In this document: piece after piece, positions 20,976 to 61,358 of the stretch
Position numbering within the stretch: the first letter of the stretch is position 1
Layout: each line of letters starts with the position of its first letter
Origin: Acorus gramineus
Lineage: Eukaryota > Streptophyta > Magnoliopsida > Acorales > Acoraceae
Direction of reading: 5' to 3'
Length of the DNA: 64,000 nt
Assembly (NCBI GenBank): GCA_030737835.1
Contig: CM060847.1
Coordinates: 21,540,433 to 21,604,432, forward strand
Made by a program: the position numbers and the translations under genes
The notes under the pieces: model-generated
Seen by the model: only the letters and a program-made list of their open reading frames with translations
The model's database searches: none
Told to the model about the DNA's origin: nothing

Positions 20976-21330
20976 AGTCCCAAAATCCTATGTCACCCAT
21001 TGAAGGGTGAGGGTGAGGGTGTAGTGGGTTGGCGATGAACGACCCACTGGAGTTGTGATTGGATGCTTGTAAGTCCCAAAATCCTATGTCACCCATTGAA
21101 GGGTGAGGGTGAGGGTGTAGCGGGTTGGCGGAAGCGACCCGTTGGTTTTTGGTGCAGTTAGTCCCAATATCCTATGTCACCCATTGAAGGGTGAGGGTGA
21201 GGGTGTGGCGGGTTGGCGGAAGCGACCCGCTGGTTATGTGTAGCCAGTCCCAATATCCTTTGTCGCCCATTGAAGGGTGAGGGTGAGGGTGTAGTGGGTT
21301 GGCGATTGAGCAACCCACGGCTTTGAGTTG
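20976..21330 (+). repeat. Tandem repeat in the 5' LTR, four units of 86-96 bp
   Basis: Units start at 20976, 21072, 21160 and 21246 with agtcccaa and share tgtcacccattgaagggtga. Each ends in a block (gggttggcg ... gaccc) that can fold on itself. The same array is in the 3' LTR at about 49802-50155 and, on the other strand, at about 63140-63290. Confidence 0.9.
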
Positions 21331-25795: not shown

Positions 25796-26068
25796 TGTAG
25801 ATACCCCATTTTGATCGGTCAGAACTGTGAAACACTTATCATTTGTGATATCTTAGTTTGCAGGTCTAAGCCCTGATGATCTTCCCGGAGCTAGAATAAT
25901 CATTTGAGTAGGGAAAGGGAAGAAAAGAAAGCATGAGCGCAACAAGTTCTTGGAGGAAAGCTTAAGAAAAGCAGTACCATTGCCCAGAACGGTTAAGTCT
26001 TGAGTTGTTGTATAAGACGTCTGAAAATCTGTCTGGTGACTAAGACGAGCGATCTCCCACTCGTCGTA

Positions 26069-26300
26069 CTGGACGATCTTTCTGAGGATTGTCGACTTCG
26101 ACGATCTTTGAAAGGATTGTCGAACTGGACGATCTTTCTGAGGACCGTCGACTTCGACGATCTTTAAAAGGATTGTCGAGCTGGACGATCTTTCTGAGGA
26201 CCGTCGACTTCGACGATCTTTAAAAGGATTGTCGATCTGGACGATCTTTCTGAGGATTGTCGACTTCGACGATCTTTGGGGGGATTGTCGACCTGGACAA
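26069..26300 (+). repeat. 56-bp tandem repeat, just over four copies
   Basis: Copies start ctggacgatctttctgagga at 26069, 26125, 26181 and 26237, with a partial copy at 26293. Each holds GTCGA and TCGACGA words. The counterpart in the 3' LTR is at 45849-46080. Confidence 0.9.
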
Positions 26301-26473
26301 TGGGATGGCGGATCGTCAAAAAAACTGGGATAAGTTCAGCTCGGAAAGGACGGCATGGCTTGCATTTTTTCGCCTCTCCACCAACGTCAGCCACTTCGGG
26401 TGAATGTGGGAGCGTCGTGGGGCACTCATGACTTCCCCAAACAGGTGTCAAGAAGGTGGTGGTCGTTTGGGGC

Positions 26474-26480
26474 TATAAAA
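26474..26480 (+). promoter_or_regulatory. TATA box of the Tat 5' LTR
   Basis: ggctataaaaggga context; TATAAAA about 680 bp into the LTR. It is conserved in the 3' LTR at 46254-46260 and is the likely start site for element transcripts. Confidence 0.6.
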
Positions 26481-26578
26481 GGGAGGCTTTGGTGGAGGAA
26501 AAAATTAATCTTTAACTCATCTTTACCCACCTTTTACTCTCCAAAGCCTCTCCTAGCCACCCCACTCGAGACCAGCGA

Positions 26579-26990
26579 CCTTTCACCACTCTCCACCCTC
26601 CATTTCCGAGCACCACCACCTCCTACACCAGCAGCCACCCCAAACAACCACCCACCACTCTCACCTACCACCTAACCCCTCCCATTCCTCTCCAAAAGCC
26701 ACCCATCCGAACCCACCTTGCTCTTTATCACCAACAGCCCTCTCAACACCCTCCACCCTCCGTTTCCGAGCACCACCACCCCCTACGCCGGCAGCCACTC
26801 CAAACAACCACCCACCACTCTCACCTACCACCTAACCCCTCCCATTCCTCTCCAAAGCCACCCATCCGAACCCACCTTGTTCTTTATCACCAACAGCCCT
26901 CTCAACACTCTCCACCCTCCGTTTCCGAGCACCACCACCCCCTACGCCGGCAGCCACTCCAAACAACCACCCACCACACCTCCCTACCCT
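26579..26990 (+). repeat. Tandem repeat of about 160 bp, 2.5 copies
   Basis: Pyrimidine-rich, stop-poor units starting near ctccaccctcc at about 26590, 26750 and 26911. They encode Pro/Thr-rich frames by composition only. The counterpart is at 46368-46745. Confidence 0.85.
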
Positions 26991-27446
26991 CACTTCCCTT
27001 CCCTTTCCTTTTTTTTCTTCTCTTTTTTTACTTAAGAGAACTTGTATAACATATCATTTCCTAAAAGAACTTGTATAAGGTTGTAACAAACTTACTAAAT
27101 CTAATAAATATAAGTTTAATCAAAGTTGAGAGTGTTGGAGTACATCATTGGACTTTTATCAGTTCTTTTGGAAACTATACGCAGCTGGCGGACGACCCTA
27201 ACTTGGATCGTTGGTCAGTTGGTCTAGGGACCATTTGAACACTCCCCTTTGCAAGTTTGGGTATCTCCCAAGGACTACTAACCCTTTTTGTTTTATTTTT
27301 GTTTACTTTATTCGTCATTTACTGCTTTATATGTTTGTTATTACTCTTTTATATACTGTTTATATGCTGCTTTTTTTTTGTTTTTCTTCGTTCCTTGCTA
27401 ACATAAACCTCCCACTAATTTTGTTAAATTTTTTTTTTTTTTTGGA

Positions 27447-27850
27447 GTTAACCCTCGACAACCCCCCTGGTTCGTCGACCTCGACAATCCCCCTGTACTC
27501 GTCTAACTTGACAATCCCCCTGTAACTCGTCAAACCCGACAACCCTCCTCTAACTCGTCAACACCGACAACCCTCCTCTAACTCGTCAATACCGACAACC
27601 CACCTTTAACTCGTCAAACCCGACAACCCTCCTCTAACTCGTCAAACCCGACAACCCTCCTCTAACTCGTCAAACCCGACAACCCTCCTCTAACTCGTCA
27701 AACCCGACGACGCCCCTCTAACTCGTCAAACCCGACAACCCCCCTTTAACTCGCCGAACTCGACAATCCAATCATAGTTCGTCGAACCCGACCATCCATC
27801 CATAGTTTGTCAATCTCGACAACTCCCCCGTGGTTCGTCGAGACCAACAA
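27447..27850 (+). repeat. 28-bp tandem repeat rich in TCGTC and CCGACA
   Basis: About fourteen units of the form actcgtcaaacccgacaacc, exactly 28 bp apart in the central part (27611, 27639). The counterpart in the 3' LTR is 47229-47645. Units are adjacent with no spacers, so this is not a CRISPR array. Confidence 0.9.
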
Positions 27851-28236
27851 TCCCTTCTAGTTCATCAACCTCCAGTCTATTGACCAGAAAGAACACCTTT
27901 TTTATCCCATTTGCCAACCTTGCACAAAAAAAAGTATCTTTCTCTCTCTTTGGGTTTGCAGGATCAATCTGAGCTTAAACACCTCAAGGCACGGCCGGCC
28001 GTGATCCTTGAGAGGAGAACCCGCATCCCTCGTTGAAGGCGAGTAATAACAGAAGAAATCTTCTTTTCTTGCTTTTGAAGAAAAGCAAGTGGCGATCACA
28101 CCAACGTCCCTGGAAGCGGTCGGGCAACCTTGGACGATCCATCAAGTGGTGATTCGAAGCGCCGTGCACGTAACGGAACCAAACTTGAAGGAACCTGGAT
28201 TCACGACCAACGCCGTGTCAAAATCCAACACCGACA

Positions 28237-30523: not shown

Positions 30524-31431
30524 TGGAATCCAGCAGCATCACCTTGCCACCCGAGAGACCCTCACCCCCTGGTGTCGATAGTTCACGCTACTGCCCATAC
30601 CACCGAATGCATGGTCATGACATCTGTGGTTGCTACACATTTCGAGATTTTGTTTATGATCTTCATGAACAAGATCGCATTGATTGGGCACTATTGCGAA
30701 ATATCATCACTAGGTCCCGCTCGGCCCACCCTGTTCAATCCTCCACTTCATCCGCACCTCTTGGCATTCATATTGACCCACTCCCTTCCCATACTCAGCC
30801 GTCTACTTCATCTGGTCCAGTTGTCAACTTCATTGGGACCGACCCTCCATCCCCCAACCAGTCCAACTCCTCATCACACCTCTGGGCCAACCTTGTTACC
30901 CCACCGGCAACACCTGATAGTGGTAAATCCAAATCTGAAGAGGAACCCATGGAAGAAGACGAGCCAGAAGAAGAGCCAGAAGAAGACCCTGAGAAACCAG
31001 AAGAGGACCCGGAGGAGGAACCAGAAGAGGACCCGGAGGAGGAGGAACCAGAAGAGGACCCTGAGGAGGAGGAACCAGAAGAGGACCCGGAGGAGGAGGA
31101 ACCAGAAGAGGACCCTGAGGAGGAAGAACCAGAAGAGGACCCTGAGGAGGAGGAACCAGAAGAGGACCCTGAGGAGGAGGAACCAGAAGAGGACCCGGAG
31201 GAGGAGAACCAGAAGAAGACCCTGAGGAGGAGGAGCCAGAAGAAGACCCTGAGGAGGAGGACCAGAAGACCCTGAGGAGGAGGACCAGAAGAGGACCCGG
31301 AGGAGGAGGAGCCAGAAGAAGACCCTGAGGAGGAGGAGCCAGAAGAAGACCCTGAGGAGGAGGAGCCAGAAGAAGACCCCGAAGAGGAGGAGCCAGAAGA
31401 AGACCCTGAGGGGGAAGTATCTGAAGACGAG
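30460..31431 (+). CDS. Tat zinc-binding motif and long acidic repeat (fossil part)
   Basis: The first part carries CPYHRMHGHDICGC (about 30590-30640), a Cys/His cluster like the one following the gag domain in Tat elements. From about 30937 the sequence becomes a 27-bp tandem repeat coding for Glu-Pro-Glu-Glu-Asp-Pro-Glu-Glu-Glu with small variations, more than fifteen units long. The opposite strand is open over the same stretch (Ser/Gly-rich or Leu/Phe-rich frames), but only because of the repeat. Such repeats change length easily. Confidence 0.6.
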
Positions 31432-31434
31432 CTC

Positions 31435-34245
31435 ATGGAAGAGCCGGAAGAACTGGCATTTGGTGAAGATGCCCTTGAGCAAGAACCATCTGAGCAGTCC
31501 ACATTGGCAAGCACAATTCAAGAACCAGAAGCATCAACCGGAACTGTTGATGGCCCGGTGGGACCGCCACCTATTGTGTTCCTCGAGAGCGAGCTCGCCC
31601 CACCAGCAATGCGTAATCGCCCTCTTCGTATCATGGTGGAGATAGCAGGGATCCCCTTCAGATATACATATATTGACACCGGGGCAGGAGGAAACATCAT
31701 GGCATATGGAGTTTATTGCTCATTTGAAGATGTGGAGGACCGTCCTGAACTTGAGCCCTCTAATGAGTTCATAGAAGCATATGACGGCACCAGACGACCG
31801 GTGGTCGGAACAGTTACGATTCCTTTGATGGTAGGCCCGTTGCACACTGAGGTATATTTTCATGTCGTAAAGCTCGAAGGGGGCGTCCACAACATAATTC
31901 TCGGGAGGGCGTGGCTCAATAATGCCAGAGCAGTTCCATCCACTCGTCATCAATGCCTTCGGTTTCCACTATGGGGAAAGATTGTCTCCGTATGGGGGGA
32001 AAACATCCTTTGGGGGGGACCGAATGAACCAAATTGGACTGTTAATGCGTTAACCGTTGGCTCAGAAGGGGGGATAGAAAGGGTGATGAAAGAAGAGTCG
32101 AAAGAAGAAATACGAGAGGAGGAGCTTGAAGAAGACTCCTTGAATTTTGAGCCATCTGGCTCCCCAACATCAACAGAAGACTCATCAGAGGAGCATGACA
32201 CGATCACTTGCTTGACATGTTCCCCTTCCATCACATTCGCTCCTCATGAGCTCGCCGAGCCTAGCATACGCACATGCCCCCTTGTGATCAAAGTAGCCAT
32301 TGCCGGTAAAATTCTCCGAAATGTCCTCGTGGACACAGGCGCTGGAGTAGACATCATGACCCATTCCACCTACTGCAAGCTTCGGCGTGGGCTCCCCAAG
32401 CTCCAACCATCAGAAACCCTTCTCCACGCATATGACAGCTCAAGCCAATCTTCATGCGGGAGGATCTCTTGTGTTCTAAAGGTGGGGCCAGTATGTACCT
32501 CTGTAGACTGCGAGGTCGTGAAGATCGAGTCGCCTCATTCCATGATCCTTGGGAGGCCCTGGCTTGACAATGTCGAAGGTGTCTCTTCTACGCGTCATCA
32601 ATGCTTGCGTTTTCCAAGCAATGGGGACATCATCTCGGTATGGGGGGAGGCACGCCGCCATGACTGGTCAAGGTTCTTCAATTGTCAAATGTGCGAGCTA
32701 AATACTGGGCCAAAGAACTGTGCATATCAGCCTCAGACGATCCTCCACCCCAGATCATACCAGGTGGCATCATCCGTTCAGCTCCTAGAAGTCGGTTCCC
32801 TCCATGAACCCGCCACCAATCCGGAGTCCCATCCGAGCTAGCAGCCTCAGCCCCATCCGGCCACTTTTGTCCTCCTGGCATCATTGTCCCAATACTGCAG
32901 TTCTCCACACCACCAGGACAGGACGCATCTTCAACAATATGCCCTCTCAAGTTCTCCGACAGACCAATCAGAAGCGGAAGTGGAAGAAGGGAGAGCTGGT
33001 GATAAGGTGGACTTGCTTGAACAATTGCGCAAAATCCCAGCCAAGATCTCGATATTGGAGCTGATCGAGACTTCAGAACACCATCAGGAGGCGATAAGGG
33101 CTTTCCTGGAAAAGGTCAAGGTGGACCGCCACATTTCTGCCTTTAATGTGCCAGCTGCGCTAGTTTCTGAAGGATTGGGCCCTGTGATCTCATTCTGGCC
33201 CAAGGAAGTCATCGATGATCCCCTCACCAACATTTCGGCACTTTGCGTCACCGCCTTGGTGGAGAAAACATTGGTTAATCGAATCCTTGTTGATACTGGT
33301 GCGGGTGTCAACCTCATGTCCCTCCAGACGTTCCAGCACGTCAATGGTGATATCACTTCACTAGCGGAGTCCGATACGCGAATTTTTGCCTATGACAGGA
33401 GTGCTCGACATGTGGTGGGCTTCCGTTCATTTAGCTTGGAGATCGGTCCCCTCAAGACCACGTTTGAAGCCTATGTTCTGGAGATGGACTCTGATTATAG
33501 CATGATCTTGGGAAGAAAATGGTTGGCGACAATCCGAGGTGTTTCCTCCCCACTCCACCAATGCCTCAAATTTCCTGTTGGAGAACAGATCATCACAATA
33601 GGCGGGGACGCTGTCAAAGGCATCCGGTATGAAGCAGAAGAAGCAGAGGCTATCACAACAGTGAAAAGCCCTTCCAGGAGAGAAGGCAAGCAGCCAGTCG
33701 TGCACATATCAGAGTTTCCACCCGATTGGGCGCGTGATGGGGCACTACAGGTAAGCACTTTGGGCAAAGGTAAAGCACGCGCATCAACTGACAGTAATCC
33801 AGGATGGCGGCTCATGGAACAAATGGGTTATCATCGAGGCCAAGGTCTGGGACGGTACAATCAAGGCACCACAGACATCATTCACAACTTCATATGGCCG
33901 GACCACATGGGCATCGGATCACTCACAGTTTATGATTGGGGACCATTCTATGGCATTACGGATTGGAGCTTGGAAGAACATTTTATCCGTAGCACTGGAT
34001 CAGAACAACCCGCATCCAGTCAACTGACTCCCATTGAGAGCCAATCAGGATCCTCCTCTTCAGTTCCACCAGAGGAAGACATTGATTCTCTGATTGAGAC
34101 TCTTGACCAGTTATTTTCTGAATCACATGAACAATTGCCCGGCGATTCTCATAAATTGCCAGAATACTATGTTGAAGACCCGGATTCTGCTGATGAGATG
34201 CCCCATTCATGCAGTTCAGGAGCATTGGGGAGCAAGACTCTCTAG
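31435..34245 (+). CDS. Tat protease region with three retropepsin-like domains and a G-patch-like motif (fossil part)
   Basis: Three successive copies of an aspartic protease fold are readable: about 31617-32010 (D-T-G-A-G at 31674, ILGRAWL downstream), 32275-32665 (D-T-G-A-G at 32332, ILGRPWL) and 33235-33625 (D-T-G-A-G at 33292, ILGRKWL). Each ends in a similar HQCLRFP or HQCLKFP stretch, so they look like ancient duplications. After the third lies PGWRLMEQMGYHRGQGLG (about 33798-33870), matching the G-patch pattern of aromatic, glycine and GLG positions. G-patches are otherwise known next to proteases of betaretroviruses. A Ser/Pro-rich tail follows. The region is spread over two open stretches. 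Confidence 0.7.
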
Positions 34246-34318
34246 GGTGATTGGATTGAACTCAGCCCTCAACCTTGCAAAAGGATGATCTATTTTCTCT
34301 ATTCTTGAGGGTGCCATT

Positions 34319-34650
34319 CAGGTAAGTACTCTCTTCCCATATCTAAGGTTCATTTATTTCCTGTCTTTCATTGTATATAGATCCTGCGCACTCTAATCTT
34401 GCATATTAAAAAAAAAAAAAAAAAAAATCAATTTCTGCTTGTACATGAAATTTCCTTGCTTTATTTCTTGCTTTGCTTGCTAAAAAAAAAAAAAAAAAAA
34501 AAAAAAATCAATTTCTGCTTTACTTCTTGCTTTGCTTGCTAAAAAAAAAAAAAAAAATATTTCTGTTTGTACATAAAATTTCTTTGCTTTTACTTCTTGC
34601 TTTGCCTGCTAAAAAAAAAAAAAAAAAAAACTCAATTTTAAGGGAGGGGT
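34319..34650 (+). repeat. Poly(A)-bearing repeats between protease and reverse transcriptase, with a donor-like site
   Basis: About four units of cttgctttgcttgct followed by 15-27 A residues (34400-34640). Just before them, at 34320, is a strong donor-like sequence (CAGGTAAGTA). Ogre elements are known to splice an intron between protease and reverse transcriptase, and the position fits. A clear acceptor was not found by eye. Confidence 0.45.
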
Positions 34651-37600
34651 GGGATCTAAAAATGGACAATGTAGAACAACCTAAGACATTAGGTTCCCTG
34701 TTTGAGATAAAGGATGACGCTTTGGTGGTCTGGCACCCCTCGCTTTTTAATTCTGATCTCCTGGACAAACTGCGGAGTTTGGTCGACCCTCCTAAGGCGT
34801 CAATGCCCCATGTGTCTCAAGGACCTGGCAAGGCTTCACGATTTCAAATCCCTACTCGGATTATCGATGACATCGGGGAACGTATTCACGTAATCCATGG
34901 AATAGAACGATCCGAGTCAATAGCTGTCATCGAAGAACCTGATTTGGAGGACCTTGGAGATTTCGATGACGGCTTGGGGGTATTTGAGATTTGTGACGAT
35001 GATGAAGAAGCAGAGCAAGAAGAGGAGATGTCAAAGGGGTTCGCAGAAAGCCTTCAGCACTTTGATGAGCAGACGGCAAGTGAGGAGGAAAGGATGGAGG
35101 AGCTGAATCTCGGGACCGCCACTGATCCTAAGATCATCTTGATCAGTGCGGAACTAAATCCGAGCGAGCGAGAAAGTTTGGAGAAGGTGTTGAGGAGCTA
35201 TTCGGATGTGTTCGCCTGGTCTTACGAAGACATGCCTGGTCTTGACCCTTCATTGGTTGAGCATAGGCTAGTTCTGGAACCAGACGCCAAACCAATAAAG
35301 CAGAAGCTAAGGCGGCTCCATCCGAAGTTGGCCATAAAGGTGAAGGAGGAAGTAGATAAGTTACACCAGGCAAAGTTTATCAGGGTGGTGCTTACCCAAA
35401 GTGGATAGCCAACATTGTCCCGGTAAGCAAGAAAGATGGCAAAGTCCGTGTGTGTGTAGACTTCCGAGATCTCAATCGGGTTTGCCCGAAAGACGATTTC
35501 CCTCTTCCACACATTGACATTCTTGTTGACAATACTGCAGGACACGAAATGCTGTCCTTTATGGATGGTTTCTTGGGTTATAATCAGATCCATCTAGCAG
35601 AAGAAGATCAGGAGAAGACATCATTCATCACTCCTTGGGGGACCTACTGCTACGTTGTAATGCCCTTCGGCCTTAAAAATGCCGGGGCAACGTACCAGCG
35701 CGCCATGACCTCGATTTTCCACGACATGATGCACAAATTGATGGAAGTTTACGTGGATGACATCTTGGTCAAGTCTAAGACGCAGGAAGGTCATGCAGGG
35801 ACACTTGAAAGGGTTCTACATAACTGTAGAAAATTTAGTTTGAAAATGAACCCTAAGAAGTGTAGGTTTGGAGTGTGGTCTGGAAAGCTATTGGGATTCA
35901 TGATAAGTAAGAGGGGGATTGAAGTCGATCCATCTAAAGCAAGAGCGATCGCTCAAATGCCCCCTCTGGAAAATTTGAAGGAGCTTGGGGGACTCATCAA
36001 TCGGCTGCAATTTATTCATCGATTCATTTCACAGCATGCCGAACGGTGTAAACCCTTCTACAAGCTGTTAAAAGGAGGGACTGAATTCATTTGGGATGAC
36101 AAGTGTCAACAAGCATTTGATGAACTTAAGAAATACTTACTCAGCCCCCCTGTTCTCTCAGCCCCTGTCCCTGGGCGTCCGCTACTTCTCTACCTGGCGG
36201 CCACTGAAGAAGCTGTTGGCGCAGTGCTCGCACAACACGATGAAGAAGGAAGGAAGGAAAAGGCTATCTATTATTTGAGCAAAACTCTGATTGAATATGA
36301 GCAGGCCTACCCGCTCATGGAAAGGACATGTTTAGCGCTGGTATGGGCCTCTCAGAAATAGTGGTGTGGGCCTACGCCACTATTTCCTTGCGCACCAAGT
36401 AAAGTATCTGGCAAAGATGGATCCGGTAAGGTATCTGTTTGAGAAGGCATCAGTGACTGGTCGGCTAGCTCGATGGCAGGTCCAACTAAATGAGTTTGAC
36501 ATCACGTATGTCACTCAAAAATCCATCAAGGGACAAGCCATCGCCGACCACCTTGCTCACCTCCCACTGCCGGATTATGAGCCTGTCAGGACGGATTTCC
36601 CTGACGAAGAGTTGTTTGCATTAGTTGAGGAAGATGACCGCAAGACATGGACATTGTATTTTGATGGAGCGGTCAATCAGAAAGGAAGAGGAATTGGAAT
36701 TGCCTTGCTCTCCCCTGAAGGTGTCATCATCCCGCGCGCTTTTCAACTTACTTTTAATGCTACTAACAATATTGCGGAGTATGAAGCATTGATTGCAGGT
36801 TTAAAGTCAGCCCTAGCTCTTGGAGTTCGTCATCTAAAGATTGTTGGAGATTCACTCTTAGTAATTCGCCAAACTTTGAAGAAGTGCCAGACAAGGGACC
36901 CGAAGCTCAAGCCCTACAGAGAACTGACTATTATCCTGTTGCGCCAGTTTCAAGAAGTGATCCACATTTTCACGCCTCGAGCCGGCAACATCCTCGCCGA
37001 TGCCTTGGCCTCGTTGGCCTCCTCACTCACCCTCCCGATATCCAAAAAGGCGGAGACTGTCATCATCCAAAGACTAGAAACTCCGGCCACTGACCTTCGA
37101 GACTGCAAGATTCAAGACCTAATGGAGCAGCAAGAGAAGAAAGATGAGATTCTTAAGTTTGTTTCCGCAATAGATTTGGAGGAGCCTGATGATGGAAATC
37201 CTTGGTTCTTCGACATCAAGAACTACCTTGAAGATGGCTCCTTTCCGGAGTACGCCACCAGTGATGATCGAAAAGCTGTTAAAAGAATGGCGACCAAATA
37301 TTGTCTTCGAGGAGGCATTCTCTTTCGCATGTCCTTCAATGGAGAGTTGTTGAGATGCTTGGAAGATGAAGAAGCATTCACTATTGTGAAAGAGGCACAT
37401 TCCGGAGTTTGTGGAGGCCATGTGAATTCACAGATGCTCGCAAAGAAAGTTCTAAGGATGGGTTACTATTGGCCCACAATGGAGGGGGATTGCCACAAAT
37501 TCGTCAAACGGTGTGTTCAGTGCCAGACCCATGCCAATAAGATCCATGCACCCGCCTCCGCATTGCATTCCATGACCTCTCCTTGGCCTTTCTCCATGTG

Positions 37601-38465
37601 GGCTCTCGACATCATCGGCCCCTTTAGGGATACAGTTGAAAACACCAGTCAGAAAGCCTTCATCCTCACTGCCACAGAATACTTCACCAAATGGGCCGAG
37701 GCTGAGTCGTACATAGTGATCAAGAGTTCTACTCTTGTTCGCTTCGTTCGTACTCATATCCTCACACGATTTGGCGCTCCGAAGGTAATCATTACTGACA
37801 ATGGTCCTCAGTTCATTTCTCAGGAATTTCAAGACCTCTGCAACAAGCACCACATTGAGCTGCATCACTCCACCCCATATTATCCCCAAGGGAATGGACA
37901 AGCGGAGGCTACGAACAAGACTCTCCTGAAGATCATCAAAAAAACCGTGGAGACGCATAAGGCTACCGATTGGCCGGACAAGCTAGTTGATGCACTTTGG
38001 GCTTATCGCACCTCCATCAGGACCCCCACAGGTCAGACTCCTTACTCCCTTACTTTTGGGATGGAAGCGGTGGTTCCCTATGAAGTGCTTATCCCATCTT
38101 TGAGAGTGGAGTTGGACAAGGATTTACAACCCGAGGATAGGAGGGAAGCGCTCCTTCTACAACTTGAACTATTAGATGAGAAAAGGTTGCGAGCAGCCGA
38201 ACACGCCCAAATTTACCAAAGGAGAATGTCCAGAGCCTTCCAGAAAAAGGTAATTGAAAGAAAGTTCCAAGTTGGGGAAATGGTGCTCAAGCAGCTCATG
38301 CCTTCTCGACAACCACACCCAAGAGGAAAACTGCAACCAATTTGGGAAGGACCTTATGTAATCACCCATGCCTATTCCGGGAATGCTTATCGCTTGGTGA
38401 ACGCCGAAGGGGACGAGGTCTCAGGTACATGGAATGCACTGTATTTGAAAAAATTCTATGCTTAA
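34651..38465 (+). CDS. Tat pol: reverse transcriptase, two RNase H domains, integrase (fossil part)
   Basis: Reverse transcriptase at about 35150-36000 (CVDFRDLNRVCPKD; active site YVDD at 35750). First RNase H at about 36100-36560. A second, archaeal-like RNase H at about 36645-37030 (LYFDGAVNQKGRGIG, EYEALIAGL) is a known feature of the Tat lineage. The integrase has its zinc-binding part at about 37390-37540 (H, H, C, C) and a DDE core: WALDIIGPF near 37600, ITDNGPQF near 37795, GNGQAEATNK near 37890. It ends with a GPY-type motif (WEGPYVI) and the stop at 38465. No chromodomain follows, as expected. About two breaks are visible in the region. Confidence 0.85.
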
Positions 38466-40185: not shown

Positions 40186-40780
40186 AATTCAAATCACCTG
40201 TCTATCCACATTCCATACACACATTCACAAAGCCAAAAAAAACAGAGAGAAAAGAGAGAGAGCATATGGCCCCTACTATTGCTTATTTCAAACACTTGGA
40301 CCATTCTATATCTCTAAACTATCAGTCAAAATCACCTGTCTATCCACATTCCATACACACATTCACAAAGCCAAAAAAAAAAAAACAGAGAGAGAAAGAG
40401 AGAGAGCATATGGCCCCTGCTATTCCTTATTTCAAACACTTGGACCAGTCCATTCTATATCTCTAAACTATCAGTCAAAATCACCTGTCTATCCACATTC
40501 CATACACACATTCACAAAGCCAAAAAAAAAAACAGAGAGAGAAAGAGAGAGAGCATATGGCCCCTGCTATTCCTTATTTCAAACACTTGGACCAGTCCAT
40601 TCTATATCTCTAAACTATCAGTCAAAATCACCTGTCTATCCACATTCCATACACACATTCACAAAGCCAAAAAAAAACAGAGAGAGAAAGAGAGAGAGCA
40701 TATGGCCCCTGCTATTCATCATTTCAAACACTTGGACCAGTCCATTCTATATCTCTAAACTATCAGCCAAAATCATTCAC
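40186..40780 (+). repeat. Four-copy tandem repeat of about 140-148 bp
   Basis: Copies start aatcacctgtctatccacat near 40190, 40329, 40478 and 40627. Each includes an A run, a GA-rich tract (agagagaaagagagag), gcatatggcccct and tcaaacacttggacca. The copies are nearly identical, so the array is recent. The open frame crossing it is a product of the repeat. Confidence 0.9.
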
Positions 40781-40850: not shown

Positions 40851-43800
40851 TCAAACCTGTTGTTGGAAGTCACCACCCTGAACCGAAGGAGGACGAGGAG
40901 GTTGTCCTGGGGCGGTCTCACCCCCTTGAAAATCCTGTCTCGCTGGAGTAGGTCTCGAAGTGGCGGATCCTTCAACCATCGAGGGAAGACGAGGGGGGGC
41001 CATTGAGTAGGAACGTGATGCACCGCTTCGAAAGGACACCGAGCCTGACAGCCCCGACATCTCGAGAAATTTAAGGTCATCCTCTGTAAATACCCCTGCG
41101 GAGTTTATCTTCATCCTCACAGTAGCCACAATAGACCGATACAAGCTCAACTCTTTGTTCCTCCTCTCGACCCGCTGCTGGGAAAGCCGGAGATCGTCTT
41201 CCATCTTGTGCTTATTTTCTTCTGCTCTCTGCCTATCCTCCTCCGTCCTCTGTTGGAAGCGTCTGAGATCCTCCTCCGACCTCCGCCGGTCCTCCTCCGC
41301 TCTCTGTCTACCATTTCTCTCACTCTCCAAAGAAGACTGAAGGGTATGGATGAACTCTCGCTGCAAACCTGGGTCGGATGCACCTGAGGATGCCTCGAAG
41401 TCTGCTACTCTGGATTGCAAGTCGTCCCTCTCACGGGTCAAAGCAAGGACGTCATTCCTTGTCCTAAGAATCTCCCTCTGAAACTGCGCTACCTCATTCT
41501 CTTGTCGGTCCCTAGCCTCTACAAGCTGCATCCTAACATCCATCAACTCGTTTTGAGCCTCTTGCAGTTGACCCAACAGTACAAGTTCTTGACCCGAAGA
41601 TGATGGTAACAATCCGGCAACTCGAGCTTGCTCTACTCCCTCAAGATGTGCCTCAAGATCTCCTATTCTCTGCAAGAGTCGCTGTTTCTCCACCTGGAGT
41701 TCACTCACCAATGAAGTTTGAACTGCAAGCTCCTCGCTCACAGTCTTAAGTCTCCGAGCAACGGCAGATCGCCCGCCCTGATTAAAGAGAATTTGAATAA
41801 TCATTCTTTATGAGAAGCATTATGAAAAAAAAAAGCAAGTTTTGAAGGAAACAAACATGCCTACCTCTATGTCAGGCATCAGTTCTTCGAATATCCCAAG
41901 ATCCTTTGCATGCTCCTTGCGATACCATTCCATGTAGTCATCACTACTGTCAAGATCCGCCGGTGGTCTAACTGGGTGGCCTTTCTCTTCCCATAACTTC
42001 AAGTGTTCAGAAAAGTCATCCTCTGGAAAAAAGGCTCTTGGGATCCCTCGTAGAGTCAGACGAGGAGAAGTTGGAAGAGGACCAGGGATCCATTGGTGAA
42101 AGCCTAGCTGGCGTGCTACGCGACTAGCACAGTGGTAGAGAACCTCATTAAAGAAAACAAGCCATGTATCGCAGACTAGTTCATCAGGAATCTCCTCCAT
42201 GTATGGCCTCCATGTCATCTGAAATAGTAACAAGCGCATGGGACGCTAAGCTGAAAGAATGCACCCCTCAAGGAAAGTTTGATGAAGCAAGAGAACGTAC
42301 CTTCTCCTCAGTCAGCAAGAGAAAATCCTCGCGGAGAAGAGCTAGAGTCCTACCATAATTTGCTTCTGGCGCAACCCACCGCATGGCACGAGGGAAAGAT
42401 GGGTCACAAAGATCCATTGATTGTGGACGAGCAATAACAATATGCTCGTACCCAAAGAGCTGTTCACAAAAAGGGGACGATGAGAAAAATCAATTACAAG
42501 TTCAAAGATAAGCAAATGCAAGCATCGAGCAAGTTATACCTGAAGAAATGCAATGAACCCACCAAGACTCTTGTCCTTTGCCCGTTGCTTCTTTCTTGAT
42601 AACTCAGCAAATAGATGAGCCAACATCGCTGCTCCCCAAGCATAGTCTCCCATTTGCACCAGATCCTCCATAAGGGTCAAAAAGTGTAAAGAAACTCGGT
42701 CTGAGGAATTACAGAAGAGCACGCGCCCAAAGAAAAATAAATAAAAGGCCCTCAGTTCTCTTTGGGCTCGCACAGGATCGGCCACTGTCTTCCTTTGTTT
42801 CGTCATGAGGTCTCGGGCCACAAATTGCGCCTCCGTCTCTTTTGGCCGACGCAAGAGGAACCTCCCCAAGCCATATTGAGCAGCGAGACGCCCTAAAGGA
42901 ATGCGGGTGAGAGTTTTCCCTCCATCAATGAGATCCCAAGCACCGATTAACTCCTGAAATTTTCGACGGTAATTTCCAAGTGTCTTCCCTGTCACCGGGC
43001 GACCCGTGACTGGAAGACCAGTGATCCGGAGGACATCTTCTAAAGTAGGCATCACTGCGCCAGTCGGAAGGATGAAAGTGCAGCTCCTTGGATCCCACCT
43101 CTCGCCTAAAGCCTCTATATATCCTCGGTCCACACTAAAAGGCTCAATCTGAAAGAAGGCCCGAAACCTGGCCCCGTCTACAAGCCCTTGCTCAACAGGT
43201 GCTAGGTCCTTATACCAGTTTCGCACGCCATGCCAAAAAGAACATGATCTCAGCGGCCGCTACAAGACAAAGGTAAGTAAAAAAAAATTAAAAATGATAA
43301 TTCCCTACTAATATTTAATTTCTCCTTTCAGGAGTAATAAAAAAAATGGGGAGGGAGAATCATGTTTACCAAGGCACGACGATAGGCACCCGCCACTTCC
43401 TCCTCGTCGTCGCCCTCGCCGTCACCCCCCGCCTCCAAATCAAGCATGGCAACCCGTTCATCAGCCCCTCCAGCTTCATTAGGCTCATCAACCCCTGTGT
43501 TCGCACCCTCAGACTCGTCCGAGTCCGAACCACCCTCTGCAGCGTCTTGCCCAAAGCCACCCGCACCCGCGACAACGCCCGCAAACACATCAATGCTTAC
43601 GTTGCCCCCCTCGACCTCATCTATCTTTGTGCTTTCGTCTGTGGATCTGTTAGTACCTATATTATCACCAGATTCTGCTGCAGTCGACTCATCCCATGAT
43701 ATCTCCTCCGACCCATTAGTCTCCATATTCACCCTCGCCGCGACAATCCCCGCACTCGCCGCTCCCGCCTCCACCCCTGACACTCCTCTCGTTGCCACAT

Positions 43801-44473
43801 CATTGACAACCCCCGAGACTCCCACTAGGTACACGCCCGCATTACTCTCAGCCTCCATGCCCGCCCCCGCTTCGGGTATAACCGCTGCCCTCATCTCCCT
43901 TTTTCCCGCGTCCGCACCCGTCACCCCCATGCGTGCGCCGGCTGCCCCCGACGTTTCGCCGCCCTCCGCAACCGCTGTGTCACCTCCTACTGCCTCCCCC
44001 ATCACCGTCATCAGCCTTGTTTCCACCATCGCCGTCATAATGGTCTCACGGTCCCTCTCGGGCATTTCACCAAACACCTCTCGCGCACCCTCCGTTCCTT
44101 CTTCTCCAACACCACCCCGGCCCCCACCGCTGCTGCCCATGGCCTCCGGCGCGGCTGACCCCATCACCGTCATCAGCCTTGTTTTCACCATCGCCGTCAT
44201 AATGGTCTCACGGTCCCTCTCGAGCATTTCACCAAACACCTCTCGTGCACCCTCCTTTCCTTCTTCTCCAACACCACCCCGGCCCCCACCGCTGCTGCCC
44301 ATGGCCTCCGGCGCGGCTGAACTTGCTTCCATGATCCCTGCCACCACACCCCTCACCTTCGGAACATCAAGGGCCGCCTTCGGATCATTATTGCTTTTCC
44401 CATGTTGCCCCACCGAACCACCCGCGGAAGTCTTCCGCCACTTTCGCTCCAAGCGCTCGGTCCTCGGCGGCAT
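40851..44473 (-). CDS. Antisense five-exon gene with plant mobile domain, inside the Tat element
   Basis: Exons on the minus strand: 44473-43370, 43259-42540, 42459-42301, 42218-41865 and 41777-40851. All introns are 75-110 bp, GT-AG and phase 0, and together the exons give about 1,087 residues with no interruption. Residues 1-368 are low-complexity Ala/Gly/Glu-rich with a 54-residue internal duplication. About 380-735 match the plant mobile domain (FILPTGAVMPTLEDVLRITG, then RAMRWVAPEANYG, then RVARQLGFHQWIPG), a family found both in host MAIN/MAIL-type proteins and in transposons. About 785-1010 are coiled coil (heptads of Leu with Glu, Arg and Gln). Antisense extra genes are known in Tat elements. 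Their role is unknown; chromatin or silencing interference is a guess. The start was chosen at the first true ATG (MPPRTERLERKWRKTS). The 3' end could include a further exon, since CAG/GTTTGA lies at the stop. Confidence 0.65.
44140..44462 (-). repeat. 162-bp in-frame duplication in exon 1 of the antisense gene
   Basis: Two adjacent copies of 162 bp (54 codons; shared text around ccatggcctccggcgcggct at 44138 and 44300) encode APEAMGSSGGGRGGVGEEG and following residues with a few changes. The frame is preserved. The exact outer limits are approximate. Confidence 0.75.
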
Positions 44474-45558
44474 CTCAATTGCGTTTTGAATAGGTGAGGA
44501 AGATGAAGGGAGGTCTGTCCAAAAAAAAAAGAAGGATTCGGGGAGGATGAATTTCCTAGAGTTGATGACACCCCGACGACGGGTTGGATGAGCGGGTAAG
44601 TATTCTTTCACGTTTTATGTAAGCCAAAACTCATCACAGGCATGTCTAAGTCACCCCTATATATATATGCACCTATATCTATCTAAATAACCATGTATTT
44701 AACTTGAGTTGAGTCAAAACCCACCACAGGTATATCTAAAACACCCCTATATATATGCACATGTATCTATCTAAATAAACATGTACTTAATTTGAGTTTA
44801 TATAGTTGTGCCTTGGAAACATCTTTGAACACTTTATCTCACGTATCTCCAATGGATTTCGGACGTATTTTTCAGATTTTCGGATATTTATTTTCAAATT
44901 TTAGACATTTATTTTCAGATTTTGGATATTTTCAAGTGTTATATTGCCTATATCAATGAATATTCTGATTTTCTGTACTCTCTTTATGTTTTGAGCACCT
45001 TTTGGGCATTCTGTTGCATAATTTTCAAAGCAAATTTTTTTGACACATCTTTTGGGCATCTATAAGCATTCTATTATATATGTCAGTTGCATTTTGGTAC
45101 ATTTTCAGGATTTTCATTAGGGCTACGACATTTAAACCTGGGCATTTTGTCTCTCAGTACATGCAAGTCAGGATTGATTTCCCATACTCCAATTTTCTTT
45201 GAGTTATCAATAAAATGATCCTTCTCCAATTATTCGAAAGTATCCCCTTTTTATTTCTGTCATGATATCCCCCTGTTTGCTGAGTTGCAACGCACGGTAG
45301 GCACAGGGAATCCAACGCCGGGTTGCAGTACACGAAGGCTAGGAACCCCAACCGAGGGTTGGATCACTCATTGACATTTAGATCAAACATTTCCTTCTCC
45401 CTTCAATGATCATTTCATTAATGGATCATAAGAAAATTGCTTCCATGTTTATCTCCTGACTTGTATTTACCAGAAAACAATGCCAGATGGTTAAACCGAT
45501 CAAAATGAGGTCTCTCTTCTTATCCTCGAATGGTGCTTCAAGCTTCACTTAAAACACC
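44474..45558. other. Tat region upstream of the antisense gene
   Basis: AT-rich, no coding sequence. A direct duplication of about 85-90 bp is present at 44623-44705 and 44715-44800 (cacccctatatatatgcac, atctatctaaata). Since the antisense gene starts at 44473, its promoter would lie here. Confidence 0.5.
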
Positions 45559-45575: not shown

Positions 45576-48021
45576 TGTAGATACCCCATTTTGATCGGTC
45601 AGAACTGTGAAACACTTATCATTTGTGATATCTTAGTTTGCAGGTCTAAGCCCTGATGATCTTCCCGGAGCCAGAATAATCATTTGAGTAGGGAAAGGGA
45701 AGAAAAGAAAGCATGAGCGCAACAAGTTCTTGAAGGAAAGCTTAAGAAAAGCAGTACCATTGCCCAGAACGGTTAAGTCTTGAGTTGTTGTATAAGACGT
45801 CTGAAAATCTGTCTGGTGACTAAGACGAGCGACCACCCACTCGTCGTACTGGACGATCTTTCTGAGGATTGTCGACTTCGACGATCTTTGAAAGGATTGT
45901 CGAACTGGACGATCTTTCTGAGGACTGTCGACTTCGACGATCTTTAAAAGGATTGTCGAGCTGGACGATCTTTCTGAGGACCGTCGACTTCGACGATCTT
46001 TAAAAGGATTGTCGATCTGGACGATCTTTCTGAGGATTGTCGACTTCGACGATCTTTGGGGGGATTGTCGACCTGGACAATGGGATGGCGGATCGTCAAA
46101 AAAACTGGGATAAGTTCAGCTCGGAAAGGACGGCATGGCTTGCATTTTTTCGCCTCTCCACCAACGTCAGCCACTTCGGGTGAACGTGGGAGCGTCGTGG
46201 GGCACTCATGACTTCCCCAAACAGGTGTCAAGAAGGTGGTGGTCGTTTGGGGCTATAAAAGGGAGGCTTTTGGAGGAAAAAATTAATCTTTAACTCATCT
46301 TTACCCACCTTTTACTCTCCAAAGCCTCTCCTAGCCACCCCACTCGAGACCAGCGACCTTTCACCACTCTCCACCCTCCATTTCCGAGCACCACCACCCC
46401 CTACACCAGCAGCCACCCCAAACAACCACCCACCACTCTCACCTACCACCTAACCCCTCCCATTCCTCTCCAAAAGCCACCCATCCGAACCCACCTTGTT
46501 CTTTATCACCAACAGCCCTCTCAACACTCTCCACCATCCGTTTCCGAGCACCACCACCCCCTACGCCGGCAGCCACTCCAAACAACCACCCACCACTCTC
46601 ACCTACCACCTAACCCCTCCCATTCCTCTCCAAAAGCCACCCATCCGAACCCACCTTGTTCTTTATCACCAACAGCCCTCTCAACACTCTCCACCCTCCG
46701 TTTCCGAGCACCACCACCCCCTACGCCGGCAGCCACCCCAAACAGCCACACACCACACCTCCCTACCCTCACTTCCCTTCCCCTTCCCCTTTTTTTTTCT
46801 TCTCTTTTGTTACTTAAAAGAACTTGTACAACATATCATTTCCTAAAAGAACTTGTATAAGATTGTAACAAACTTACTAAATCTAATAAACATAAGTTTA
46901 ATCAAAGTTGAAAGTGTTGGAATACATCATTGGACTTTTATCAGTTCTTTTGGAAACTATACGCAGCTGGCGGACGACCCTAACTTGGATCGTCGGTCAG
47001 TTGGTCTAGGGACCATTTGAACACTCCCCCTTGCAAGTTTGGGTACCTCCCAAGGACTACTAACCCTTTTTGTTTTATTTTTGTTTACTTTATTTGTTAT
47101 TTACTGCTTTATATGTTTGTTATTACTCTTTCATATACTGTTTATATGCTGCTTTTTTTTTGTTTTTCTTCGTTCCTTGCTAACATAAACCTCCCACTAA
47201 TTTTGTTAAATTTTTTTTTTTTTTTTGGAGTTAACCCTCGACAACCCCCCCTGGTTCGTCGACCTCGAAAATCCCCCTGTACTCGTCTAACTTGACAATC
47301 CCCCTGTAACTCGTCAAACCCGACAACCCTCTTCTAACTCGTCAACACCGACAACCCTCCTCTAACTCGTCAATACCGACAACCCACCTTTAACTCGTCA
47401 AACCCGACAACCCTCCTCTAACTCGTCAAACCCGACAACCCTCCTCAAACTCGTCAAACCCGACAACCCTCCTCTAACTCGTCAAACCCGACGACCCCCC
47501 TCCAACTCGTCAAACCCGACAACCCCCCTTTAACTCGGCGAACTCGACAATCCAATCATAGTTCGTCGAACCCGACCATCCATCCATAGTTTGTCAATCT
47601 CGACAACTCCCCCGTGGTTCGTCGAGACCAACAATCCCTTCTAGTTCATCAACCTCCAGTCTATTGACCAGAAAGAACACCCTTTTTTATCCCATTTGCC
47701 AACCTTGCACAAAAAAAAAGTATCTTTCTCTCTCTTTGGGTTTGCAGGATCAATCTGAGCTTAAACACCTCAAGGCACGGCCGGCCGTGATCCTTGAGAG
47801 GAGAACCCGCATCCCTCGTTGAAGGCGAGTAATAACAGAAGAAATCTTCTTTTCTTGCTTTTGAGGAAAAGCAACTGGCGATCACACCAACGTCCCTGGA
47901 AGCGGTCGGGCGACCTTGGATGATCCATCAAGTGGTGATTCGAAGCGTCGTGCACGCAATGGAACCAAACTTGAAGGAACCCGGATTCACGACAACGCCG
48001 TGTCAAAATCCAACACCGACA
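45576..48021 (+). repeat. 3' LTR of the Tat element
   Basis: 2,446 bp, almost identical to 25796-28236, with the same arrays: 56-bp units at 45849-46080, TATA at 46254-46260, units of about 160 bp at 46368-46745 and 28-bp units at 47229-47645. The few differences seen are mostly single substitutions and a three-base change near 46271. Confidence 0.92.
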
Positions 48022-48026: not shown

Positions 48027-50684
48027 GGCGTGCGCTCGGGCTGGCGCTGGGCGTGCCTGGTGCTGGGCGTGCAGGGCTAGTCGGGTGCTAGGCTGGCAGG
48101 GCTAGCTGGGTAGGCTGGGAGCAGGGCACCAGTTTGCTGGGCGCGCGAGCGCGTGCGCGGGAGTGCGCTCGGGGGGTGCAGGGGCGCTCGGGCATCAGGC
48201 GGGCAGCGCCCCGGGCGTGCAGGCGAGCGGTGCTCGGGCCACTCGGCGACGCGCGCAGGCAGGCAACGCGGGCAGCAGCGCGGGCAAACTGGCAGGCGCG
48301 CTGGGCGCGTGCTGCCAGGCGCGCTGGGCGCGTGTTGCGTGGGCGTGCGCGTGGACGCTGGGTGAGGGTCCCGGGCGCTGGGTCGCGGGTGCCGGGTGCT
48401 GGGCGCTGGCGGGCGCAGTCGGGCGCGCAGTCGTGCGCGGGTGCGTGCGCGCGTGTGCGCGGAGTGGGTGCGCGGGTGCTGGCGCGAGCGGGGGTGTGCG
48501 CGGGCGCGCGCGGGGGCGCGCGGGCGTGCGCGCGCGCGGCCAGTGCGCCTGGGCGCTGGGCAGGGAACCAGTGCGCGCGCGCGCGTGCATGCGCGTGCGT
48601 GCGCGTGCTGGGGCATGCTGGGGCGTGCTGGGGCATGCTGGGGCAGTGCGCGGGGTGCTGCGCGAGGGGCGCGGGCTGGACGCGCGGTGCGCGTGGGCGC
48701 GCGCGAGCGTGCGCATGCGTGCGGGTGCGCGTCTGGGCGCGCGGGCAGGCGCGCGACAGTGCGCCGATGGTGCCGGGGTGTGTGCGTGCGTGCGCATTCG
48801 TGCGTGCGCATGCGGGGGGCCATGCGAATGGCTGCCCGAGGGTTCGGGTAGGTGTCGGGGCACTCGGACTCGCGTGCGTACGCGCGTGCTCGCATGCGTG
48901 CGAGCCCGTATGCATGCTTATCCGAGTTTTGGGTATTTCTATGCATTTCTATGTATAAATTGTGTGGTTTCTCACCATATTGAATGTCTGTCTTACAGAT
49001 CTAGACGGACGGTCGCGCGACGACCCCGATCTCTGGTGAGTGGTACAATCCAACCCAGTAGAGAGGTGTTATACGCACTTGGGCGTATACCGACCTCTCC
49101 TGGGGCACCATGGATGAATATTGGCATGTTGTAATTTGTATATCATGCGAGCATGATTTAATTGTAGAATGCATGTTACCCTAGACTTTGCATGTTAGGG
49201 ACTTGCACCCTTAGGATATGGGTATGAGCCTTGCACCATGTCCCCTCTTTCCATGTTAGGAAGCCCGACCGATGAATGTGCCCTACTAGTTTATTTATTA
49301 AATTAAATGCTAGTATTTGTTAAATTGCATGTTATAGTGAATATTATAGGGGAGGGGCCTTGCGAGGACAGCGGTGAGACCCGGGTTAGGGTACACCGTG
49401 TTCCTTGTTTGGTTGTCGGGGTGCCCTATAACGGGAACTCACGCTGCCCTCCCGAGTTTCTTTCCCCCAATGATATTCCACCCTTGTTATAACCTTATGC
49501 ATGTTCCCCGCATCGTAGTTATGCGCCCTGGTGGGTTCTGAGGAATTCAGAACATTAGTGTTGTTATAATGTGCCGTCTGCGGATCCAAGTGGATCATAT
49601 GCGATGGGTAGGCTGTTCTGTTCCCTTCGTTGGATCCGGTAGAGACTACCCCAGCGTTAGACAGGCCTTCTTGACAGAGGGCTCCCATCAGTAGGCACCT
49701 CCTGATTTAGGACGGACTGTGCTGAATGTGGGAGTAGACCAGGCGGCCTACGGAGTGGAGGAGAGACTATCGGTGGACCAAGGGTGACCAACAGCCTAGT
49801 CAGTCCCAAAATCCTATGTCACCCATTGAAGGGTGAGGGTGAGGGTGTAGTGGGTTGGCGATGAACGACCCACTGGAGTTGTGATTGGATGCTTGTAAGT
49901 CCCAAAATCCTATGTCACCCATTGAAGGGTGAGGGTGAGGGTGTAACGGGTTGGCGGAAGCGACCCGTTGGTTTTTGGTGCAGTTAGTCCCAATATCCTA
50001 TGTCACCCATTGAAGGGTGAGGGTGAGGGTGTAGCGGGTTGGCGGAAGCGACCCGCTGGTTGTGTGTAGCCAGTCCCAATATCCTTTGTCGCCCATTGAA
50101 GGGTGAGGGTGAGGGTGTAGTGGGTTGGCGATTGAGCAACCCACGGCTTTGAGTTGTGCTATCATTCGTGGACTAAGTAATGTGGTTGTGGATGTTAAAG
50201 ATTATCTGGTTGTGGTCAATATTGTCTGTGTTGCATGGGTTGTGCCGTTCACTGAGTGTGTGGCTCACCCCTCGCATAATATTTTTCTACAGTGTCATCT
50301 GAGTCGGATCTGGAGGAGGAGCTCCCCGAGGGACTTCATCAGTAGCGGAGTAGCGCCACGTCCCGCGAGTTTCTGAGGCTATCAGCATCCCTTGTACCAG
50401 TATGTATTATTTTCCGTGCTTGGGCACGCGTTTGTGTTGTATTTGAATGTCTTTGTATGTATATTGGCTCTCACAGGACATGTGATTATGTATGGAGTCT
50501 GTAGTGTGTTTTGATTACAGATTCAGTCTTTAGTTATCCGCATTTGGTGTATATATCATGTCAGCCCTGCTTTTGTTGTCTGTGTGTCATGTTGGTTGCT
50601 TGTGTATGATATTATTGACCTCCTGTGTAGATTCTGATATTTTATATACACTTGCCGCGTCTCGGGGACGCCCGGGGCGTGACA
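48027..50684 (+). repeat. 3' LTR of the chromovirus, second part
   Basis: Continues the LTR interrupted at 25795, with the rest of the GC-rich island (to about 48830), the four-unit array (49802-50155) and the end GGGGCGTGACA. It carries about 100 bp more in the GC-rich part than the 5' LTR, so that island is length-variable. Open frames in the island are compositional. Confidence 0.9.

Positions 50685-55430: not shown

Positions 55431-61358
<5,928 letters not shown>

Follow-up and report, generated by a model that had tools for sequence, protein, structure and literature searches.

The window analysed here, a 64-kb stretch of the Acorus gramineus genome, contains an Ogre-like element of 22.2 kb that carries, opposite to gag-pol, a five-exon gene with a plant mobile domain (PMD). 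The element lies on the plus strand between LTRs of 2.44 kb, the 5′ LTR at 25796–28236 (TG...CA; aligned with one extra base at its 3′ end) and the 3′ LTR at 45576–48021, with the purine-rich GAGGAGGGG just upstream of the latter. Over 2439 aligned columns the LTR pair shows 41 substitutions and 8 gap events; at a K2P distance of 0.017 the element is not very young, contrary to the very recent insertion that a preliminary description of this DNA had entertained. GCGCG is found on both outer LTR flanks, but the GC-repeat character of the flank makes it a weak candidate for a target duplication.

Along the plus strand, a gag match (Retrotrans_gag, PF03732; 29675–29944) scores 22.7 bits, just below the curated cut-off of 24.1, and is followed by an aspartic protease domain (PF13975; 32287–32568; 28.7 bits, cut-off 28.2) and, late in the gag-protease open segments, a G-patch (PF01585; 33793–33918; 34.5 bits); a second, weaker protease-like match lies at 33280–33525. 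The open segments stop at 34245 and restart at 34449, at the position expected for Ogre elements, which are described as carrying an intron at the gap between the gag-protease and RT-side ORFs (PMC6317226); on this ORF layout the interval 34246–34448 is a putative intron, in a copy that has other breaks too. Farther along are reverse transcriptase (PF00078, 107.3 bits) and the first RNase H (PF17919, 82.5 bits), matched in parts within 35426–36358, a second RNase H (RVT_3, PF13456; 36660–37016; 59.7 bits), and the integrase zinc-binding (PF17921, 41.1 bits) and core (PF00665, 47.4 bits) domains at 37368–37886. The order RT_RNaseH, RVT_3, Integrase_H2C2, rve displays the aRH trait of the Ogre lineage, a trait common to Retand, the site between RH and integrase being the position given for the second RNase H in both Ogre and Retand (PMC6317226). 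Large size, long LTRs and 3′ tandem repeats likewise agree with the Ogre lineage; the repeats comprise four 147-bp units at 40191–40775, just 3′ of the antisense gene, and tandem repeats downstream of gag-pol have been described for Ogre elements (PMC7004042). Several sense frames are interrupted, as the preliminary description held, and Rfam and tRNA scans of the 64-kb window returned no matches.

The antisense gene occupies the minus strand between integrase and the 3′ LTR, its five exons running from 44473 to 40851. Exon 1 (44473–43370, 1104 nt) begins with an ATG at 44473 and encodes a low-complexity, Gly/Glu-rich N-terminus; exon 2 (43259–42540, 720 nt) covers PMD profile positions 6–180, exon 3 (42459–42301, 159 nt) the middle of the profile and exon 4 (42218–41865, 354 nt) positions 240–347; and exon 5 (41777–40851, 927 nt) encodes a coiled-coil-like C-terminus ending at a TGA stop. 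All five exon lengths are multiples of three and the joined frame of 1,087 amino acids is stop-free, while the four introns (110, 80, 82 and 87 nt) are all GT-AG and phase 0, with 39–46% T and an in-frame stop in each, reproducing the gene model of about 1,087 residues first proposed. When each exon was shuffled 2000 times under a second-order Markov model, the frame came out open 0, 2, 368, 0 and 0 times for exons 1–5, respectively. A TATA-like box at 44658–44668 (minus strand), inside an 88-bp duplicated unit, is a candidate promoter element for the gene, and TATATATA recurs in each of the 8 copies inspected, out of 20 in the alignment. More TATA-like sites occur near 44755 and 44804.

Scanned singly, exon 2 matches the PMD profile (PF10536) at 96.6 bits and exon 4 at 26.8 bits, below the curated cut-off of 34.9, and exon 3 alone, recognisable only when spliced, gives no PF10536 match. 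Joined, exons 2-3-4 score 159.3 bits against that cut-off in one stretch spanning profile positions 6–347 of 347, compared with 120.4 bits in two stretches when exon 3 is skipped; splicing in exon 3 thus adds 39 bits and turns two partial matches into one complete match, bearing out the predicted PMD. The DUF7745 and DUF1985 matches of exon 2 fell below their cut-offs, the five exons scanned separately gave no match to PF04195 (Transposase_28) at E up to 1, and with exon 2 alone as query, PDB sequences gave a single, non-significant match (E 0.14). Searches of plasmids, viral contigs and prokaryote genomes confirmed no relative of exon 2; 44 pattern matches in one of these searches were unconfirmed. 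The protein of exon 5 is charged and, in its first 240 residues, proline-poor; its heptad signal is modest (a simple ad hoc score gives z 2.4 relative to shuffles), leaving the long coiled coil previously described plausible and unproven. A basic stretch at residue 590, from one simple pattern, is the sole basis for a nuclear signal.

Conservation and selection among genomic copies

For comparison we used 23 other close copies from the same genome, ranked by exon-2 match, a sample that favours intact exon 2. Exons 2–5 are open with all splice sites in 17 of the 23, and all five exons are open in 8, so the open state is not special to the window copy. The exon 1 ATG is kept in 21 copies and the exon is open and in frame in 13; in the other 10 it is frameshifted or stop-bearing, implying either a loose N-terminus or dead copies. 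Exon 5 ends three codons earlier, with a stop at aligned codon 306, in 12 of the 23. The 54-residue duplication in exon 1 (two 162-nt units at 43997–44320, minus strand; 98%) is real but private to the window copy: it is absent in 22 of the 23 others (L026, with upstream exon 1 unaligned, cannot be judged) and is therefore not the distinguishing trait of the gene that it was taken to be.

Indels per kb, counted in 20 of the 23 copies, number 0, 0, 0.14 and 0.49 in exons 2–5 and 2.4 in exon 1, against 2.4–16.4 in the introns and 6–15 in the flanks. Substitution divergence is 0.019–0.033 in the exons, 0.033–0.054 in introns 2–4 and 0.12–0.13 in the flanks; that of intron 1 (0.012) lies below the exons.

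Mean pairwise dN/dS for PMD exons 2–4 is 0.195 (253 pairs, which share ancestry), not near 1 as expected had the gene been drifting across the family, with a pN/pS bootstrap, over codons only, of 0.14–0.29. By exon, dN/dS is 0.585, 0.181, 0.142, 0.284 and 0.490 for exons 1–5. In a matched set of 16 copies, PMD exons 2–4 give 0.151 and reverse transcriptase a nominally higher 0.278. The neutral N:S expectation for exons 2–4 stays at 2.5–2.7 with CpG boosts up to 15-fold; methylation bias therefore does not explain the low dN/dS, ruling out a CpG-mutation artefact for these exons. For exon 1 the expectation shifts with the boost from 2.57 to 1.71, making its dN/dS less secure. Shared changes had a lower N:S than singletons in 7 of 7 exon sets, none significantly (smallest p 0.09), and we left this comparison out of the evidence for that reason.

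The gene extends to distant relatives, 17 copies about 60% identical, which have the same intron borders, keep 60 of 61 checkable splice dinucleotides and show an exon-2 dN/dS of 0.126 among themselves. Between the close and distant classes dS is incomputable in 15 of 17 comparisons, synonymous sites being saturated, and dN/dS values are used only within one class or the other. Taken together, the open copies, the low dN/dS and the borders kept in relatives about 60% identical make this, as far as sequence can tell, almost certainly a protein gene belonging to an Ogre-lineage Ty3/gypsy element, spliced and under selection.

Among 26 elements in which both flanking segments were found, 8 have 356–369 bp between them and 18 have 4.4–7.6 kb. 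The gene-less deletion form, near-identical in its integrase, has also multiplied; thus the gene seems dispensable in cis and its product may act in trans. Besides that of the window, 5 of 6 stop-free full-length integrase pieces have no scored PMD match nearby.

A possible function in trans

The interpretation that we consider probable is of a PMD accessory gene with its own antisense promoter and five exons, perhaps acting in trans on silencing or transcription. Read from that promoter, the transcript would be spliced from five exons and encode a PMD protein ending in a coiled-coil-like tail. Being antisense, the gene would have its introns reversed, and hence unspliced, in the sense genomic RNA, so that they would survive retrotransposition. 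The protein would be nuclear and work in trans on the element's transcription or silencing; as the likeliest mechanism, it would compete with host PMD proteins of the MAIN/MAIL1-PP7L type or imitate them. Host MAIN and MAIL1, with PP7L, are reported to be needed in TE silencing (PMC7156037, PMC5418596), and counter-silencing by Ogre PMD genes has already been proposed in print (PMC8616336). A role for the protein in silencing or transcription is a serious candidate, if short of an even chance; counter-silencing in particular is more tentative; and it is doubtful that the protein overrides the host MAIN/MAIL1-PP7L pathway, with the gene-less form a cheater using its siblings' protein.

The deletion form can also be read in the opposite sense, as having escaped a brake: the antisense PMD protein might dampen the transcription or copy number of its own family. 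The multiplication of gene-less elements, the five integrase pieces lacking a nearby PMD match and the part played by host PMD proteins in silencing (PMC7156037, PMC5418596) all fit, yet a brake is expected to be easily lost and the PMD exons are selected in the diverged subfamily too, leaving this the best of the alternatives and still an unlikely one. Slightly weaker is the proposal that the protein helps replication, acting in the particle or at the integration step with no silencing role; its dN/dS, which does not exceed that of reverse transcriptase in matched copies, accords with this, but deletion derivatives have multiplied, though helpers can be supplied in trans, and expressing a spliced antisense gene would require a transcript apart from the genomic RNA. 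We think it highly improbable that the antisense transcript, as a regulatory or siRNA-generating RNA, matters rather than the protein: the gene runs opposite to the 3′ portion of the genomic RNA, so that a duplex could form, but a translated product is indicated by dN/dS of 0.15–0.2, by kept splice borders and by the scarcity of indels in exons 2–5 when introns 1, 2 and 4 and the flanks have many. A functionless passenger or chance ORF, open through young insertion, can be set aside with near certainty, for although LTR divergence is only 1.7% and a copy with broken sense genes need not function, the gene is open in many copies, under purifying selection and shared, exon borders included, with distant relatives, and the Markov shuffles and dN/dS together reject it.

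The locus offers one Ogre PMD gene whose dN/dS does not exceed the reverse transcriptase value of the same copies and whose splice borders are kept across a deep split, together with a natural deletion series within one genome, in which expression, methylation and recent spread can be compared between elements that have the gene and elements that lack it. The printed idea of counter-silencing therefore becomes directly testable.

Relation to known PMD and antisense genes

Extra ORFs in Ty3/gypsy elements were reportedly described by Steinbauerova et al. in 2011, whom several papers cite for them. PMD eORFs are common in Ogre elements, at 57% in one survey (Neumann et al. 2019, PMC6317226), which raises the question whether the extra ORFs of LTR elements have a function. 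Our element resembles the Ogre elements described there in its second RNase H between RH and INT, the short gap between gag-protease and pol, and the PMD extra ORF; the survey scored eORFs of at least 250 codons, whereas here five exons are resolved and selection is tested, and its relevant passages leave the strand of the PMD eORFs unstated, whereas here the gene is antisense. An antisense, intron-containing PMD gene in a Tat/Ogre element, as first suggested for this locus, is supported, the gene being intact and selected.

Ikeda et al. (2017, PMC5418596) described the PMD-A1/A2 clades as encoded exclusively by Gypsy elements. The present gene likewise lies inside a Gypsy element, a genomic context that agrees with Gypsy-encoded PMDs as against the PMD-C of MAIN/MAIL. 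The TRP28 genes of Retand (Vicient 2025, PMC11963269) are also antisense between pol and the 3′ LTR, in a region with tandem repeats, and some have Smc-type matches; their domain, however, is Transposase_28, not PMD, and the words "PMD" and "plant mobile" are absent from the main text of that paper. MAIN and MAIL1 share the Pfam domain but are host genes with a standalone PMD, outside LTR elements (PMC7156037). Among the titles and abstract openings covered by a partial literature search, none dealt with how an antisense PMD gene is divided into exons or with its dN/dS. The gene is a well-preserved example of the already known Ogre PMD genes, not a new kind.

An antisense gene with five predicted exons and a plant mobile domain

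On the minus strand opposite gag-pol, between the integrase and the 3' LTR of the Ogre-like element, the preliminary description had placed a five-exon gene with GT-AG borders and phase-0 introns, a structure that stands (exons at 44473-43370, 43259-42540, 42459-42301, 42218-41865 and 41777-40851) and gives a joined product of 1,087 residues. The introns are short (80-110 nt; 39-46% T), and every one holds an in-frame stop. Exon 3 alone (53 residues) has no Pfam match; inserted between exons 2 and 4, it raises the score of the plant mobile domain (PMD; PF10536, profile length 347) from 120.4 to 159.3 bits and merges two stretches into one complete match, the strongest evidence for splicing that the single sequence offers, and one that bears out the PMD assignment across spliced exons 2-4. 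Charged residues abound in exon 5, which also has a modest heptad signal. Upstream of the gene lies an 88-bp duplicated unit with TATA-like boxes in the antisense direction; such boxes also occur in the eight copies inspected, of 20 aligned.

With exon 2 as the query we searched the window's own genome (398.6 Mb in 137 contigs), scoring the best 150 of 1086 candidates: 37 close copies at 85-100% identity, the window copy counted, and 113 at 54-62%. Our close set comprises the 23 other matches covering the whole of exon 2 (13 partial ones were left out) and our distant set the 17 matches next in rank, a ranking biased towards an intact exon 2 and less towards intact exons 3-5. All eight splice dinucleotides are intact in 22 of the 23 close copies, the remaining one being truncated after exon 3. 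Exons 2-5 are open with good splice sites in 17, and all five exons are open in eight, plus the window copy in each case (exon 5 being counted as open if it ends at 290-320 codons); ten have an exon 1 that is interrupted or has lost its frame. The 54-residue duplication in exon 1 (43997-44320), earlier taken as a distinctive trait, proved not to characterize the family: it is absent in 22 of the 23 close copies, and in the other, L026, upstream exon 1 is unaligned and cannot be judged.

Selection and depth of conservation

Selection, already raised as a possibility, emerges from dN/dS among family copies. Mean pairwise values over the close copies (excluding the heavily damaged L020, and using L029 for exons 1-3 only) are 0.195 for exons 2-4, 0.490 for exon 5 and 0.585 for exon 1, with pN/pS codon-bootstrap intervals of 0.14-0.29, 0.31-0.82 and 0.45-0.75, respectively; the neutral N:S ratio for exons 2-4 stays at 2.5-2.7 with CpG mutation raised up to 15-fold. 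RT was alignable in 15 of 20 elements, five having none inside the stretch taken, and in these 15 and the window dN/dS is 0.278 for RT and 0.151 for PMD exons 2-4 (point values, RT without an interval). Relative to the window, 20 close copies (L020, L026 and L029 left out) have 0-0.5 indels per kb in exons 2-5, 2.4 in exon 1, 16.4, 9.4, 2.4 and 14.4 in introns 1-4, and 6-15 in the flanks; the corresponding substitution divergences are 0.019-0.022 (exons 2-5), 0.033 (exon 1), 0.033-0.054 (introns 2-4) and 0.12-0.13 (flanks). Intron 1 (within 41778-43369) has diverged by only 0.012, below the exons, despite its many indels. Private and shared changes among the close copies do not differ significantly.

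Across the 16 copies compared for RT, PMD exons 2-4 (41865-43259) have a synonymous divergence of 0.043, 2.6 times the 0.016 of RT (35396-36358), which suggests that the 3' part of the element has a history different from that of pol, for example through template switching between element lineages.

The gene extends to the 17 distant copies, whose exon 2 is 54-62% identical to the window's: exon 3 is found in 11 (36-50%), exon 4 in 15 (mostly 38-55%) and exon 5 in 13 (28-33%), with no counterpart of exon 1 in any of the 17. Over the exon-2 acceptor and the borders of introns 2 and 3, 60 of 61 checkable same-place splice dinucleotides are canonical (exon-2 acceptor 15/15 and donor 17/17, exon-3 acceptor 11/11 and donor 7/8, exon-4 acceptor 10/10). 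Exon-2 dN/dS is 0.126 among these copies at a mean dS of 0.72; compared with the window copy they show a dN of 0.34-0.44, with synonymous sites saturated. Two of them, scanned singly, match the PMD at 96.9 and 95.9 bits. One (on contig C60) lies 3.9 kb from an integrase that shares 78% identity with that of the window, and in opposite orientation to it, as in the window element, where the spacing is 4.1 kb; for others the integrase is farther away, at 7.3 kb (81% identity), 8.3 kb (75%) and 18.5 kb (74%). When the genome was searched with the PMD profile (best 117 of 1381 candidates scored), the matches listed included many other PMD loci, in which the match halts near profile position 181 and restarts at 238-239 (the start of 27 of 33 C-terminal stretches among the matches listed). 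These breaks coincide with exon borders of the window gene, suggesting that the introns at these places are old within the PMD family.

Elements without the gene

Of 63 integrase matches entered, 23 had a scored 3' LTR junction. Thirteen of these carry the antisense gene, with 6.5-20.6 kb to the LTR; the other ten have no scored PMD match, an absence checked by eye against all 150 scored exon-2 matches, and only 2.34-2.57 kb to the LTR, too short for the gene. An independent test used 40 matches to segment 38980-39760, of which 26 also had segment 44800-45500, at a spacing of 356-369 bp in eight and 4.4-7.6 kb in 18, with none in between; of the remaining 14, six showed a short LTR distance only (1.04-1.23 kb) and eight neither. 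The near-constant 356-369 bp suggests that the short form arose by a single deletion and later multiplied. Integrase identity to the window copy is 97-99% in nine of the ten short elements and 90% in the other. Because a diverged subfamily carries the gene, its absence is best read as loss, and because the form without it multiplied, the gene seems not to be required in cis.

Among the matches listed, five of the six full-length stop-free integrase pieces besides the window's have no scored PMD match nearby (C54:1682563, C10:1287573, C1:1695056, C3:30826294 and C63:2412902 of the same genome); in these small numbers, better preserved integrase pieces tend towards elements without the antisense gene.

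The carrying element, candidate roles and known relatives

The element spans 22.2 kb between two 2.44-kb repeats, the 5' LTR (25796-28236) and 3' LTR (45576-48021), both beginning TG and ending CA. Aligned over 2439 columns, they show 41 substitutions and 8 gap events (K2P 0.017), which corresponds to an insertion age of ~0.66 million years at a substitution rate of 1.3e-8 per site per year. GCGCG on both outer flanks is weak evidence of a target duplication, because the surrounding DNA is itself GC-repeat. That GC-rich tandem-repeat block (25617-25788 and 48041-48811) resembles one ~6.5 kb upstream (19127-19990), and each is followed by similar 88-bp repeats (21072-21304 and 49898-50130), a pattern that may reflect duplication of a larger unit. 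Elsewhere in the window lie two host-like genes, a Dof zinc finger (1146-1730) and an FMN-binding NADH:flavin oxidoreductase fragment (60699-61355), and minus-strand copia-type fragments (8951-10986).

As had been described, the sense genes of the window copy are broken by several interruptions. A second aspartic-protease-like match, below cut-off, lies ~0.7 kb from the first in the gag-protease region (32287-32568 versus 33280-33525), and the gag region holds 16 copies of a 27-bp repeat (30991-31415) whose unit would be Glu/Pro-rich if translated in one of its frames.

A spliced coding structure, a PMD, selection, deep conservation and absence from a multiplied derivative are all evident in the DNA itself. 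Antisense placement would keep the introns safe from removal during retrotransposition, since genomic RNA carries them reversed, and the predicted PMD product would act in trans. Among host proteins, MAIN and MAIL1 act jointly with PP7L in transposable-element silencing (PMC7156037, PMC5418596); the domain points to that pathway, and the predicted product may break silencing, limit the element itself or help replication.

Scanned one by one, the open segments match Pfam domains in the order gag, protease and G-patch and then, beyond a gap, RT, two RNase H domains and integrase. An additional RNase H placed, as here, between the first one and integrase is described as a mark of Ogre and Retand alike; for Ogre the mark given is two ORFs with a short gap between them, an intron in pea and Medicago (PMC6317226). 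In the window element the layout of open segments leaves a gap at 34246-34448, in a copy whose frames are broken elsewhere too. PMD-encoding extra ORFs are recorded in 57% of surveyed Ogre elements (PMC6317226), Gypsy-encoded PMD clades are on record (PMC5418596), the PMD is the commonest atypical domain in another survey (PMC9289625), and in the Retand lineage antisense ORFs between pol and the 3' LTR are reported as the rule, some with Smc-type matches (PMC11963269). The present gene family joins these known cases; the evidence that it is under selection is unusually clear, and it comes with a useful natural series of deletions.
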